Assembly (NCBI GenBank): GCA_003280345.1
Contig: QCFB01000001.1
Span: 124,001-188,000, forward strand
Source of the DNA: Prochlorococcus sp. AG-363-A16
GTDB lineage: Bacteria; Cyanobacteriota; Cyanobacteriia; PCC-6307; Cyanobiaceae
Direction: 5' to 3'
Length of the DNA: 64,000 nucleotides
Every line of letters starts with the position of its first letter. Positions within the stretch are counted from its first letter, which is position 1. The notes under the pieces are model-generated. The model ran no database searches. It saw only the letters and a list, made by a program, of their open reading frames with translations, and was not told the origin of the DNA. Below are positions 2,180-7,453 of the stretch, piece by piece. Made by a program: the position numbers and the translations under genes.

Positions 2180-2961
2180 TGAATCAACTCGACAGACCTT
2201 CTATTATTTATGTATTCCAATACTATATCATCTTCAAGCAGTCTATTTAACTCTAGAACTGTATTTGTTGTAAAGTCTTTAAAAAAATATTGCTTTCCAA
2301 TTGATAAATCTTGCTTTATATTAGGTAACTTACCGAAAATATTATTCTGTCTAATTACTTTTATCATCATATCAGTGACTAATTTTGTATTTTTACATGC
2401 CATGGTATGACTATCATCTTTTGGAACTAAATTAGGTCTATCTTGTAGTATTAATCCTCCAGAATCTATACCTTTATCTATATGATGAATAGTCATTCCT
2501 ATGTATTCAAGTTCTTTATTTATTATGGGCCAAATGTTTGTGGCAGTTCCTCGATAATAAGGAGACAGGCCAGCGTGGACGTTAAAAAGTTTTCCTCTGA
2601 ATCTTTTTATAATATCATCTCTTAGAATTGAAACAGAGTATAGAGCAATAGAATTTGGTTTAAGGCTGTAGAGATAATCAATTGATTCCTTTAGGTTAAT
2701 TTCTCCTGGCTCTATAACTCTTAATAATCGCGAATTTAAAATTTCTGCATTTTCCTTTACAAAGGATTTGAAAGCTTTTTCTTCTGCTTTGAATAATTTT
2801 TCAAAATGAATATCCATAATATTACTATTCTCTACTTGATAGTATTTTTTTCTATTTCGTTTTTCAAAAATAACTTTCGAATCTGGAATTTCCTTGAGAA
2901 TTTTAATAGCAAAATATTTATGCCTAAGAGTTGTAGACGTTATGATTAATGTGCTTATCAT
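2173..2961 (-). CDS. Formyltransferase-family protein (not the housekeeping fmt)
   Basis: This 262-residue protein has the catalytic core of 10-formyl-tetrahydrofolate-dependent formyltransferases. The FNVHAGLSPYYRG motif supplies Asn127 and His129, and IDKGIDSGG supplies the catalytic Asp166, matching the Asn-His-Asp set of methionyl-tRNA formyltransferase. It lacks the C-terminal tRNA-binding domain of Fmt, and a full fmt gene lies at 34077-35096. It therefore probably formylates a small molecule such as an amino sugar or amino acid rather than Met-tRNA. Its start codon overlaps the racemase stop by 4 bp (ATGA) and its end overlaps the sulfatase-fold gene, so the three are almost certainly one transcript. 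The family is clear; the acceptor substrate is inference. Confidence 0.85.
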   Translation of the reverse strand: MISTLIITSTTLRHKYFAIKILKEIPDSKVIFEKRNRKKYYQVENSNIMDIHFEKLFKAEEKAFKSFVKENAEILNSRLLRVIEPGEINLKESIDYLYSLKPNSIALYSVSILRDDIIKRFRGKLFNVHAGLSPYYRGTATNIWPIINKELEYIGMTIHHIDKGIDSGGLILQDRPNLVPKDDSHTMACKNTKLVTDMMIKVIRQNNIFGKLPNIKQDLSIGKQYFFKDFTTNTVLELNRLLEDDIVLEYINNRRSVELIQW

Positions 2962-3671
2962 TTGAGACTTTTAATTTGTTCAATTGATTCTGTTGCTAAA
3001 ATTTGATTACTGTCAATCAAAATTAAATCATTATTACTTCCTTCAATAGCAATTGGAATTTCTGTACAACCAAGTATTACACATTCAGCGCCATATTCTT
3101 TGAATTCGTCTATTAATCTTTGAGCCGTTCTTGTAGACCTTGAATTTTTTCCATTGACCTTTACTTCTTCGATTAGTTTAGCGACCTCATCTTGTTTTTT
3201 AGGGTGTATGATGTGAAGATTTCTTTGATCAAAAAAACTTTCGTATAAGCGATATTTACAAGTGTTATTGGATGCTAATAAGCCTATTTTTTTTATTTCT
3301 GGATGCGTTCTTAAAATATATTTACATGTTTCATCTATTATATGTAGTACTGGAATTTCGGCCATTTCTGTATATTGATCATAAAAATAATGAGCTGTAT
3401 TACAAGGTATTGCAACTAATCTTGCACCTGAATTCTTTAGTCCTTGAATTGAACTTCTAATATATTTGGATGGATTTTCTTCTCCTAAATCTAGACATCG
3501 TCCTCTGCTAGGTATCTTTGTATTCAAATCAATAATGACTCTTATATGCTCCCAATCTTTTTTTGCATTAGATAATCTTGCTACTTTGTCTACAAAATCA
3601 TATGTTGCATATGGGCTAAACCCCAATACACCTAAAATTTTCCGATCATCAAGCCAGTATTCCTTTTCCAT
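2958..3671 (-). CDS. Aspartate/glutamate racemase family protein
   Basis: This 237-residue protein has both cysteine motifs of the two-base, PLP-independent Asp/Glu racemase superfamily: IPCNTAHY (Cys90) and LGCTEIP (Cys202). Length matches the family (about 230-240). The fold is a tandem Rossmann-like duplication, with one catalytic cysteine per half. Family members racemise aspartate or glutamate, and some act on hydantoins or maleate, so the substrate is not fixed by the sequence. It is the first gene of the leftward operon, and the promoter probably lies in the 146-bp divergent gap that follows. Since murI would normally be elsewhere in the genome, this copy is likely to supply a D-amino acid for the island pathway. 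Confidence 0.85.
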   Translation of the reverse strand: MEKEYWLDDRKILGVLGFSPYATYDFVDKVARLSNAKKDWEHIRVIIDLNTKIPSRGRCLDLGEENPSKYIRSSIQGLKNSGARLVAIPCNTAHYFYDQYTEMAEIPVLHIIDETCKYILRTHPEIKKIGLLASNNTCKYRLYESFFDQRNLHIIHPKKQDEVAKLIEEVKVNGKNSRSTRTAQRLIDEFKEYGAECVILGCTEIPIAIEGSNNDLILIDSNQILATESIEQIKSLK

Positions 3672-3817
3672 TTATTTTAATGTATACTTTTCAGTGCCTA
3701 TAGTGGTGTTATTCTACATTCTAACAAACGCTCCTGCTTTTTAATGATTAGTATATTGAATTTCTCTGACTTGTAATTTTCTGAAATTATGAACTTTCAC
3801 CTACTTTTAAATATTCA
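3672..3817. promoter_or_regulatory. Divergent intergenic region of the island operons
   Basis: The two island operons diverge from this 146-bp AT-rich gap, so it should hold both promoters. Overlapping -10-like hexamers are visible at 3750-3757: TATACT on the minus strand and TATATT on the plus strand. No good -35 element pairs with either. Shared control of both operons is therefore plausible but not shown. Confidence 0.4.
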
Positions 3818-4939
3818 ATGATAAATGTCATTCTTGCAGCTGGTCAATCTACGAGATTTAAGCAGTCATCCAAGCAACAAATAGATAAAGATTTAATGCC
3901 TTTTAATGGCGCACCTGATGGATCTCTAATAAGGCTTGTGCGACAATTAGATGAAATATATAAAGATGCTCATAACATAGTAGTAATTAATAAGAATCAT
4001 CCAAATAAAGAGCAATATATTATAGATACTGGGTCGGAAGTTACTATTCTTAAATGTGATCTGGATAAGAACGATAACAACTCTAAAACATTAGGGTTTG
4101 TATTGTCCTCTATAGATATTAATGATGATATTCAGATATTTGAATCCGATACCTTTATTAAGGACAAAGCTTTATTTAATTTCGCAACTAATACTAGAAT
4201 TAATTCTGATGATATTATCATTACATCGATTGGTATATCACCTCATTTGACATCAGGAGGATTTATTTATTTAGACAATACACAACTAATTCTTTATATA
4301 GGAGAACGAAAAAGCGATAGTGATCTGAAGTTATTTGGAATTACAAGAATACCTAGCCAATATGTTTCTGGCATAACCTCTAACCTTTTAAATGTTATTG
4401 ATTCTTCAGAGTATTTTCACGCTGCTATCTACGAATTTATTTCTAAAAGAACTACAAAAATATATGATTTTGGCGAGCATTCTTGCTTTTCATTCAACAA
4501 TGTTAATGAATTGAATGATGGGAAAAGAATCGTCAAGACAAACCATTTAGCCTCGTTAAAAATGGAACTTATAGATCTCAATCGCCTAGTCCCAATAGAA
4601 TCTGTCGATAATGAGAAAGTACAATGGTTAAAAAGAAAAATAATTAAGGATAATCTTTGGATTACTCCTATAATAACTGATATTCAAAGCAACTTAGTTA
4701 TGGATGGTCACCATAGATATGCTGCCGCCTTAGAACTTGGATTGACTAAAATACCTTGTTTGTTAGCTAGCTATAAAAATGTTGATTGTTGGTCAATCAA
4801 TACATCTTTTCATATTAACCCAGAGATACTTTATGCCTCATGTTTGCAAGGATTTACTTATCCATGGAAGACCGTAAAGCATGATTTTGATAATATTTCT
4901 ATTAAAAGCATTAACATCAATCTAGACAACCTTAGATAA
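3818..4939 (+). CDS. Nucleotidyltransferase fused to a ParB-fold, SerK/SbnI-like kinase domain
   Basis: A 373-residue two-domain protein. Residues 1 to about 215 form an NTP-transferase domain of the LicC/MobA type: ILAAGQSTR (5-13), KDLMPF (24-29), and an acidic metal-binding pair in FESDTF (108-113). Residues about 245-330 match the ParB/sulfiredoxin-like domain used by free-serine kinases (archaeal SerK, staphylococcal SbnI). Visible there are LVPIE with the expected glutamate (Glu261), a PIITD strand, and MDGHHR (295-300) with the aspartate and histidines of the nucleotide site, followed by A-x-x-LG-x-x-x-IPC. A kinase plus nucleotidyltransferase in one chain suggests phosphorylation then NMP-activation of one small molecule, with serine as the best guess. 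It heads the rightward operon, with one base before the next gene. The fold calls are solid; the reaction is inference. Confidence 0.8.
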   Translation: MINVILAAGQSTRFKQSSKQQIDKDLMPFNGAPDGSLIRLVRQLDEIYKDAHNIVVINKNHPNKEQYIIDTGSEVTILKCDLDKNDNNSKTLGFVLSSIDINDDIQIFESDTFIKDKALFNFATNTRINSDDIIITSIGISPHLTSGGFIYLDNTQLILYIGERKSDSDLKLFGITRIPSQYVSGITSNLLNVIDSSEYFHAAIYEFISKRTTKIYDFGEHSCFSFNNVNELNDGKRIVKTNHLASLKMELIDLNRLVPIESVDNEKVQWLKRKIIKDNLWITPIITDIQSNLVMDGHHRYAAALELGLTKIPCLLASYKNVDCWSINTSFHINPEILYASCLQGFTYPWKTVKHDFDNISIKSININLDNLR

Positions 4940-4940
4940 G

Positions 4941-5627
4941 ATGAAAACTTTAATCTTAGGAGCAGGTGAAGGTTTTCGTTTAGATAACTTTAACAAGCTT
5001 TTACTTCTTAATCCAAATACTGGAAATACAATACTTCAAGACTATGTTAATACTTTTAAATCCGAAAATTTAATTGTAGGAGTAGGTTATAGAGCTATCA
5101 GTGTTGTTCATCAATACCCTAAGTTAAATTATGTAGTTAATAATAATTGGTCTGAAACAAAAAGTGTTGAGACATTAAGGCTTTGTTTGGATGAAATTAA
5201 TGACATGAACGAAGAAGTTCTAATTCTTCCAGGAGATGTTTTTATAACGCAAGACACACTTCATCAAATGTGCAATGATAAAGGTAATGTTATTTATTGT
5301 ACAAAGAAAGAAAACAACAAAATCAAGCGAAGAGGTATAATATTGGAATTAGAGAATGATTCTATAAAAAATATGCATATAGATTATTCTATGACTAATT
5401 CTATAGAAGCTTTCGGTGCATTTAAATTTTCATCTGCAGCTGTTATAAGAGACACTTTGTCTAAAGGTGGTAGTGACATTAAGTCATTGTTTGTTTCAGA
5501 GCTTCTTTGTAAGGATTTTAATTCTGATAAGCCCACGACTCAATCCTTCATAGCGAAGAATGTTACTAATTCGATCTGTGAGATTGAGGTTGTTGAAGAC
5601 TATATAAGATATGTAAAAAGGCAATGA
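4941..5627 (+). CDS. LicC-like nucleotidyltransferase
   Basis: This 228-residue single-domain protein is a sugar- or choline-phosphate-type nucleotidyltransferase. It has the nucleotide-binding start LILGAGEGFR (4-13), an acceptor-side NNNWSETKSVETL segment (67-79) resembling the N-x-x-x-x-E/T-x-S motif of LicC cytidylyltransferases, and the metal-binding aspartate in LPGDVFI (96-102). The usual basic residue after the glycine loop is present (FNKLL). It is flanked by the fusion gene one base upstream and overlaps the DUF711 gene by 4 bp (ATGA). Two LicC-like domains in one operon suggest two activation steps or a hetero-oligomer. The substrate is unknown. Confidence 0.8.
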   Translation: MKTLILGAGEGFRLDNFNKLLLLNPNTGNTILQDYVNTFKSENLIVGVGYRAISVVHQYPKLNYVVNNNWSETKSVETLRLCLDEINDMNEEVLILPGDVFITQDTLHQMCNDKGNVIYCTKKENNKIKRRGIILELENDSIKNMHIDYSMTNSIEAFGAFKFSSAAVIRDTLSKGGSDIKSLFVSELLCKDFNSDKPTTQSFIAKNVTNSICEIEVVEDYIRYVKRQ

Positions 5628-6817
5628 TTAATAGGCAACAAATATCCTTAAGAACTATCACTTATAGCCTTGACCTTAATTGTTATAGTTCGGACGATCT
5701 TCAAAATTTTAAAAACTCATCTATTTATTTTGATGATTTATTTCTATCAAACTTTAATAGTGTTGCTAGAACCAAGAGGATATCCATTTTACCTTGTATT
5801 GTTAATACTGAGAAGGAGGCGATAGAGATTCATAAGAGAACTCAAACTTTAACACAACAAGCTAAGAGCTACGGCTTTAGATGGGTAAATCTCCCACTAA
5901 TACTTACTAGCCAATCTATCCTATCCTTCTCAGATTTAGTACGAAAACTAATACTTACAAACGATAATCTTTTCATAAGCTTGTATTTTAAGGATATATC
6001 ATCTTATACATTAGAGATTGCATCTAAATCTATATTAAAAGTTTCCAGAATAAGTAGATCAGGTATAGATTCATTTAGGCTTGGCGTTGCTTACGGAGAA
6101 CTTGAAGGTTGTCCATTTTTCCCTTATGCATACTTTACAAAGCCTAATTCTTTTAGTCTAGGTCTTGAGTCACTCAATCTTTTAAATATCCTCAAAGATG
6201 ATGAACTTAATCCATTGTCTACATTTGTTCAATATCTCAGTGAAGATATGAATTTGCTCAAGAAGAATTGTTTAAATCCTCTCTTAGATACTAGTGATTT
6301 AAATTTTATGGGCATAGATGCCTCTTTAGCACCTTTTCCAAGAGAGAAATTTAATTTAGTTGAAGCATTCAGAAAGTTAGGTATATTGAGATTTGGAGCT
6401 CCAGGGACATTAACAAGAATATCTCAATTAACATTAGGGTTAAAAAGTTCTATTAAAAACTCTGGTATAACTCCAGTAGGTTTCAATGGCTGTATGTTGT
6501 CTGTTATTGAAGATGATGGGCTAGCTGAAATAGCATTTAAGCAAGAGATTAATATTGATAAATTAATGTTGTATTCCACTGTTTGTGGTTGTGGTATAGA
6601 TATGGTTCCAGTTGCTGGAGGTATTCATATAGATACAATAATGAATATGATTCTTGATATTATCGAATTGTCAAAACGCCATTCAAAGCCCTTAGGCCTA
6701 AGAATTTTGCCTCAATCTGGCCTGAGCTCTAATGAGTCTTCCTCTTTATGTCATGATTTCCTTACTGACACTAGAATATTTAATACTCTAGATAGTATTT
6801 CTATTGTTCCCTATTAA
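5624..6817 (+). CDS. DUF711 (UPF0210) family protein
   Basis: This 397-residue protein matches DUF711: an N-terminal RTITYSLDL strand, the central GIDASLAPFP segment followed by FGAPGTLTRIS, a PVGFNGCMLSVIEDDGL loop, and VCGCGIDMVPVAGG near residue 320. Typical members are about 450 residues, so this one is somewhat short. The family's biochemical role is not established to my knowledge, and members often sit beside a small ACT-domain gene that is absent here. The ATGA overlap with the nucleotidyltransferase gene marks it as the last gene of the rightward operon. Its inclusion in a kinase/nucleotidyltransferase operon is an unusual clue to function. Confidence 0.75.
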   Translation: MINRQQISLRTITYSLDLNCYSSDDLQNFKNSSIYFDDLFLSNFNSVARTKRISILPCIVNTEKEAIEIHKRTQTLTQQAKSYGFRWVNLPLILTSQSILSFSDLVRKLILTNDNLFISLYFKDISSYTLEIASKSILKVSRISRSGIDSFRLGVAYGELEGCPFFPYAYFTKPNSFSLGLESLNLLNILKDDELNPLSTFVQYLSEDMNLLKKNCLNPLLDTSDLNFMGIDASLAPFPREKFNLVEAFRKLGILRFGAPGTLTRISQLTLGLKSSIKNSGITPVGFNGCMLSVIEDDGLAEIAFKQEINIDKLMLYSTVCGCGIDMVPVAGGIHIDTIMNMILDIIELSKRHSKPLGLRILPQSGLSSNESSSLCHDFLTDTRIFNTLDSISIVPY

Positions 6818-7007
6818 TGATTTAGGAGTAGAAATGGATGTTTTCTTTTGATTAAAAGTATCACTAAATAACTCATAATTCTTACCGTATTAAATTAGAC
6901 CTCTACCTGTATAAGCACTCATCACTAATAGTTTCTAAGCCATTACCAAAATGACCTTAATCCGAATTTTATCCATTAAATGGCTAGTCACAGACTGACG
7001 TTCAATA
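6818..7007. other. Intergenic spacer between DUF711 and the tRNA-derived repeats
   Basis: No gene is visible. The last 40 bases (about 6976-7007) are a degenerate match to the region beyond the tRNA-fMet 3' end at 7344-7377, including a remnant of its terminator stem. The duplication therefore once extended past the tRNA gene itself. Confidence 0.4.
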
Positions 7008-7054
7008 GGTGGCGGGGGGGAGATTTGAACTCCCGACCTTCGGGTTATGAGCCC
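7008..7054 (-). repeat. att-like 47-bp copy of the tRNA-fMet 3' half
   Basis: Bases 7008-7054 are identical to 7378-7424, covering the tRNA-fMet acceptor 3' strand, T-arm and anticodon loop as far as the anticodon stem. After that the two sequences diverge at once. The copy lacks the D-arm and 5' acceptor strand, so it cannot be a working tRNA. Its CCA is also altered (CCT). An exact 3'-half tRNA copy in the same orientation just beyond an intact tRNA is the standard footprint of integration by a tyrosine recombinase. Confidence 0.85.
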
Positions 7055-7101
7055 AGCGATAATTACAATAGTTCTGTTGGTATGACTAGTTTGTGTATCG
7101 A

Positions 7102-7376: not shown

Positions 7377-7453
<77 letters not shown>

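Follow-up and report, generated by a model that had tools for sequence, protein, structure and literature searches.

The window, i.e. the whole 64,000-nucleotide stretch of DNA analysed here, contains a cassette of genes arranged as two divergent operons, with an uninterrupted frame for 373 residues at the head of the rightward one (Table 1). The encoded protein combines a nucleotidyltransferase (NTase) domain (residues 1 to about 232) with a ParB-fold domain (residues about 244–373) and is referred to below as the fusion. A second, divergent NTase gene begins 1 nt downstream of the fusion and overlaps by 4 nt a gene for a DUF711/UPF0210 subfamily protein, which carries a CGCGIDM motif at a conserved position. 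The leftward operon encodes a racemase, a formyltransferase and a member of the alkaline phosphatase superfamily annotated as a sulfatase. No counterpart of the racemase was seen in the corresponding cassette of Prochlorococcus sp. AG-402-M15, a relative from the same family. The sulfatase-like protein has no evident signal peptide and has a probable threonine, Thr57, at the nucleophile position (in a low-scoring segment of the alignment). Sulfatases carry a modified cysteine at this position, and the protein may thus act instead as a phosphotransferase or phosphoesterase. Matches to promoters and terminators did not exceed those obtained with shuffled sequence. The assembly comprises 1.74 Mb in 47 contigs and is about 89% complete.

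Table 1. Positions of the features at the fusion locus, numbered along the window, with the observations that identify them
Feature	Positions	Strand	Basis
Alkaline-phosphatase-superfamily ('sulfatase') protein	860–2179	−	Sulfatase 3.7e-16; 38% identity to AG-402-M15 cassette gene
Formyltransferase, Fmt/ArnA type	2173–2961	−	Formyl_trans_N 1e-14; best NCBIfam model ArnA, 9e-17
Asp/Glu-type racemase, divergent operon	2958–3671	−	CuyB 196.3 bits against NCBIfam cut-off of 190
Intergenic region between the divergent operons; probable shared promoter region	3672–3817	.	Gene layout
Fusion, complete ORF (373 aa)	3818–4939	+	
Fusion, NTase domain	3818–4513	+	NTP_transf_3; profile match to LicC (1jyk); Foldseek PntC/LicC/IPCT; residues kept in three homologues
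Fusion, SerK/SbnI-like kinase domain, compact form	4547–4936	+	NCBIfam SerK; profile against SerK chains; AF2 model; 17-row alignment
Second, divergent NTase (228 aa)	4941–5627	+	NTP_transf_3 5.6e-7; 28% identity to AG-402-M15 gene at the same place
DUF711/UPF0210 subfamily protein	5624–6817	+	Pfam DUF711 1.8e-45; 37% identity to AG-402-M15 gene; matches 2HA9
Partial copy of tRNA-Met (3′ part)	7004–7059		56 nt, 95% identical
tRNA-Met	7377–7453	−	

The GC content of the genes between positions 860 and 6817 is 0.29–0.32, as compared to 0.33 in the rest of the window and 0.40 in the next gene. The edge of this low-GC stretch is marked by the partial tRNA-Met copy, 370 nt from the intact gene. A partial tRNA copy beside an intact gene is the usual mark of integration at a tRNA, and the cassette therefore probably arrived on a mobile island. 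The 56-nt copy is probably the attachment-site remnant of a tycheposon-like, tRNA-targeting island. On the other flank, ABC-2 transporter genes and the sulfatase-like gene are separated by about 1.9 kb in which no ORF reaches 100 aa (locus L012, 16956–18860, extending to window position 859).

The kinase domain among SerK, SbnI and ParB

The assignment of the two halves of the fusion rests on several searches. Pfam NTP_transf_3 and ParB_N matched residues 4–73 and 244–320, respectively, both slightly under the Pfam cut-offs, and only a ParB_N-like domain was found by Pfam in the C-terminal part. With NCBIfam, the SerK model gave 9e-10 and 38.1 bits and SbnI 0.0014 and 18.1 bits, followed by the ParB-type models Noc (15.1 bits) and ParB (14.7 bits), which SerK exceeds by more than 20 bits. 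The SerK and SbnI scores nevertheless lie far under the respective equivalog cut-offs of 380 and 350, and on its sequence the domain is filed as a shorter, compact relative of SerK/SbnI, not as an equivalog. When the compact domain was searched as a six-row profile, SerK crystal chains were matched at 3e-13 over two separate segments (SerK residues 16–116 and 204–241), the latter including the motif KTTxH that corresponds to K351-T-V-K-H355 in the fusion. Consequently, the domain appears to be a compact SerK without some 90 residues from the middle. ParB-N proteins encoded on plasmids also match it, with E-values down to 3e-15 in tblastn. These plasmid relatives, the adjacent gene pair in two further genomes (see below) and the SerK profile match in combination exclude a chance match of the fusion's domains.

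The residues associated with SerK activity are retained. LVPIE occupies residues 257–261 and DGHHR residues 296–300. Glu261, at the end of the former motif, aligns with E30 of SerK (the Glu of KPHEQ), the residue mutated in the structures 5x0j (E30Q) and 5x0k. An alignment of 17 compact homologues shows full or nearly full conservation of E, W, P, DGxHR, Y, P, K and H, the Glu261 equivalent being strictly conserved and DG[HN]HR present in every sequence. Those matches of the kinase profile across the phylum for which a frame could be recovered are ParB-like and devoid of SerK motifs, with the exception of a single DGHHR protein that has no C-terminal motif.

An AF2 model of the kinase domain alone, built from a four-row alignment, reached a mean pLDDT of 73, with values of 85–96 at domain residues 11–80 and low confidence at residues 82–117, which include KTVKH. 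Foldseek searches with this model returned SerK/SbnI as PDB matches one to eight (E 2.2e-5 to 1.9e-4), followed by a ParB-N domain and then sulfiredoxin (Srx); the domain did not turn out to match a ParB CTPase or sulfiredoxin while lacking the kinase site. ParB, Srx and SerK all have the matched core fold, and it is the motifs and sequence scores, not the fold alone, that separate them. Identity as a ParB partition protein or CTPase was rejected on the motifs, the scores and the missing HTH and C-terminal dimerisation domains.

The preliminary description of this DNA had reported a two-domain ORF with a SerK/SbnI-like ParB-fold domain. The Pfam and NCBIfam matches and the relatives confirm the former, and retention of Glu261, DGHHR and KTxxH agrees with the latter. 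Its two kinase motifs, LVPIE with Glu261 and DGHHR, stand as given, and the C-terminal KTxxH is a further SerK motif that was absent from its list. The acidic pair that it placed at residues 110–111 of the NTase domain requires correction, the residues in question being E109 and D111 on either side of Ser110. Taken together, the sequence and fold comparisons make the kinase-domain identity well supported.

The nucleotidyltransferase domain and the gene pair in relatives

In the N-terminal half of the fusion the NTase motifs are found at LAAG 6–9, R13, K24, E109-S110-D111 and SFNN 225–228, and LAAGQxxR, K24, E109-x-D111 and S225-F-N227 are invariant in three homologues. A profile of these three rows had LicC (1jyk) as its best PDB match, at 4.5e-5. 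A full-length structure model, built from five rows, was poor for the kinase domain and usable for the NTase domain, with most blocks at 59–84 pLDDT up to about residue 130. Foldseek of the NTase part placed PntC-AEPT, LicC and inositol-1-phosphate cytidylyltransferase (IPCT) at the top with E-values of about 1e-9 (2.7e-9 for LicC). All three are CTP-dependent and act on phosphates of small alcohols or on phosphonates, and the analogy to LicC drawn in the preliminary description is thus upheld by both profile and fold. The second site, however, reads S225-F-N227 in each of the three homologues, as against E-I-D in a LicC-like neighbour. The asparagine is reminiscent of GlmU, and the metal site is therefore not fully LicC-like. 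Cytidylyl transfer by this domain is accordingly a prediction that we regard as moderately supported.

Both domains, with their catalytic motifs, are present in the fusion, and in the relatives their partnership is conserved as separate genes in a polysaccharide setting. In Prochlorococcus sp. AG-402-M15 (G293) the NTase, a 126-aa kinase, the second NTase and the DUF711 protein are encoded by four successive genes, followed by genes for a methyltransferase, a sulfatase-like protein, another methyltransferase and a CDP-alcohol phosphotransferase; glycosyltransferase and ABC transporter genes surround this cassette. In a second Prochlorococcus-family genome (G745), adjacent NTase and kinase genes lie at a contig end after genes for a glycosyltransferase, an ABC transporter and an O-antigen-ligase-like protein. 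The kinase gene is thus located directly 3′ of the NTase gene in both exopolysaccharide clusters. Kinase matches to the window protein in the family samples came from G000, G293 and G745, and among 400 family genomes the DUF711 protein and the sulfatase-like protein were each present in two only (G000 and G293). Scans of genome and viral contigs with the window protein as a single query gave no match, and alignment scans returned only the AG-402-M15 cassette or distant phage proteins. Among the instances found, the fused form is seen in the window protein alone, and the fused kinase–NTase architecture was not found in the collections or literature searched.

The acceptor and competing explanations

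The nature of the acceptor was approached via the neighbourhoods of compact kinase homologues. On proteobacterial plasmids these proteins are labelled 'ParB N-terminal domain' and are located in biosynthetic clusters. SbnA/SbnB/SbnH-like genes for 2,3-diaminopropionate occur in seven of 15 plasmid neighbourhoods; two of the 15 are staphyloferrin-B-like, with IucA/IucC genes and a type III PLP enzyme, and NRPS clusters account for four. SbnA and SbnB were the best NCBIfam models for the sampled neighbours. The substrate of SbnA is O-phosphoserine. As the compact homologues adjoin genes of the SbnA/SbnB/SbnH type, which need O-phosphoserine, free serine is, on this indirect evidence, the likeliest acceptor of the fusion's kinase domain. 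SbnI produces O-phosphoserine, as cited in PMC12704722.

The short 'ParB N-terminal domain' proteins in diaminopropionate, siderophore and NRPS clusters of rhizobial and other plasmids (L007, L009, L057, L060–L064 and L068) look like compact serine kinases and not like partition proteins, which suggests that many proteins so labelled in siderophore and NRPS clusters are misnamed serine kinases. On two Agrobacterium plasmids (L007 and L068), a phosphonate cluster encoding PEP mutase, an aminotransferase and a LicC-like cytidylyltransferase, with a CDP-alcohol phosphotransferase in addition in L068, is directly joined to a compact serine kinase gene and SbnA/SbnB/SbnH-like genes; its product may be a phosphonate carrying a diaminopropionate unit. 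The viral collection also contains a prophage contig with a full compact serine-kinase-like gene at its edge, beside an integrase (L071:1-426).

The same architecture could also serve another acceptor, such as D-serine, homoserine, serinol or N-methyl- or N-formyl-serine, and yield the matching CDP derivative. The three cassette kinase domains form a distinct clade (support 99/98) and read KT[VA]KH, with V or A for the second T of KTT, as opposed to K[TS][TS][RK]H in the diaminopropionate-type homologues, and the acceptor could therefore differ. Moreover, the adjoining racemase and formyltransferase in the window, or the methyltransferases in AG-402-M15, could precede the kinase step. Against this, the homologues nearest in sequence belong to pathways that use O-phosphoserine and the invariant residues of the compact family are all kept, and we consider a different acceptor unlikely. 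It is rather improbable that the two activities belong to separate pathways, with the kinase supplying O-phosphoserine to general metabolism and the NTase acting on a sugar-1-phosphate for polysaccharide. The cassettes of the relatives do lie in sugar-polymer clusters, and the NTase also resembles sugar enzymes of the GlmU/RmlA type, its S-F-N site being closer to GlmU than to LicC. Nonetheless, LicC and PntC outrank the sugar enzymes in both profile and fold matches, and the kinase gene has this NTase gene as its neighbour in both relatives and as its fusion partner in the window. Furthermore, no SbnB above the cut-off was detected in the cassette genomes, and phosphoserine is consequently probably not used for diaminopropionate there.

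We give least credence to a ParB-fold domain that is not a kinase and instead regulates the NTase as a nucleotide-sensing or CTP-binding module. One archaeal SerK-like fusion was found to bind CTP rather than ATP (PMC12704722), and ParB and Srx have the same core fold; still, the catalytic Glu, DGHHR and C-terminal motif of SerK are kept, HTH and dimerisation domains are missing, and the SerK score stands well above those of the ParB models.

Proposed pathway and known systems

The interpretation advanced in the preliminary description, i.e. phosphorylation of serine and its linkage to a nucleotide by one chain, is supported as the best one available. On our inference, the acceptor is serine, the donor CTP, the product CDP-serine and the destination a polymer, and we give an even chance to a two-step enzyme that makes O-phosphoserine and then CDP-serine in one chain for the decoration of a surface polymer. 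Phosphorylation of free serine at its hydroxyl, with ATP or ADP as the nucleotide donor, would be carried out by the compact SerK-type domain, in which Glu261 is the likely catalytic base and DGHHR would hold the phosphates. The LicC/PntC-type domain would then attach CMP, taken from CTP, to the phosphate of O-phosphoserine, releasing CDP-serine and pyrophosphate. The activated serine phosphate, possibly N-formylated and/or epimerised, would be passed to a surface polysaccharide via transferase genes of the cassette. The formyltransferase in the window and the methyltransferases in AG-402-M15 could modify the amine. Action of the CuyB-type picocyanobacterial racemase on O-phosphoserine is speculation on our part, prompted by the similarity of cysteate and O-phosphoserine as anions. 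In AG-402-M15, the CDP-alcohol phosphotransferase could perform the transfer to the polymer. The only such enzyme found in the window genome, at about 89% completeness, is PgsA-like; none of the three cassette genomes has a LicD transferase, and no polysaccharide genes were recognised beside the cassette in the window genome.

Somewhat short of an even chance, some cells of the Prochlorococcus lineage may form CDP-serine, or its N-formyl, N-methyl or D-form, by means of a single kinase–cytidylyltransferase protein, and decorate a surface polymer with phosphoserine-type groups derived from it. If so, the head-group activation logic of LicC and PntC would reach an amino acid and a catalytic fusion would be added to the ParB/Srx fold. 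An abundant ocean phototroph would moreover carry a phosphoserine-type modification on its surface, the chemistry of which governs encounters with phages and grazers. We know of no description of a nucleotide-activated serine of this kind or of such a glycan decoration, and the literature searched held nothing relevant on enzymes for CMP-phosphoserine or CDP-serine. Every protein of the cassette has known relatives, and it is the fusion and its predicted product that look new in the collections searched.

The individual parts have precedents. SerK, the archaeal ADP-dependent free serine kinase (TK0378; PDB 5x0b–5x0k), has the ParB/Srx fold, the catalytic Glu, DGHHR and the C-terminal KTTxH in common with the fusion, and S. 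aureus SbnI (PDB 5uje) likewise has the ParB/Srx fold, the catalytic Glu and DGHHR. In contrast to SerK, the kinase domain described here spans only about 130 aa, is missing the equivalent of SerK residues of about 117–203 and is fused to an NTase. LicC, the CTP:phosphocholine cytidylyltransferase (1jyk), shares the LAAG-x-x-x-R, Lys and E-x-D motifs and differs near the C-terminus, where the fusion has S-F-N in place of the E-I-D of the LicC-like neighbour. The kinase of the Lic system is a separate choline kinase of a different fold. PntC-AEPT (PDB 6pd1/6pd2), the top fold match, is an earlier case in which a LicC-type cytidylyltransferase is joined to the enzyme that makes its substrate, albeit the partner is an AEP aminotransferase domain and the substrate a phosphonate. 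A parallel in logic is the C. jejuni capsule, for which the Raushel group has reportedly described activation by an L-glutamine kinase and a CTP:phosphoglutamine cytidylyltransferase. There, too, an amino-acid kinase followed by a cytidylyltransferase feeds capsule decoration, but with an unrelated kinase, another amino acid and separate proteins.
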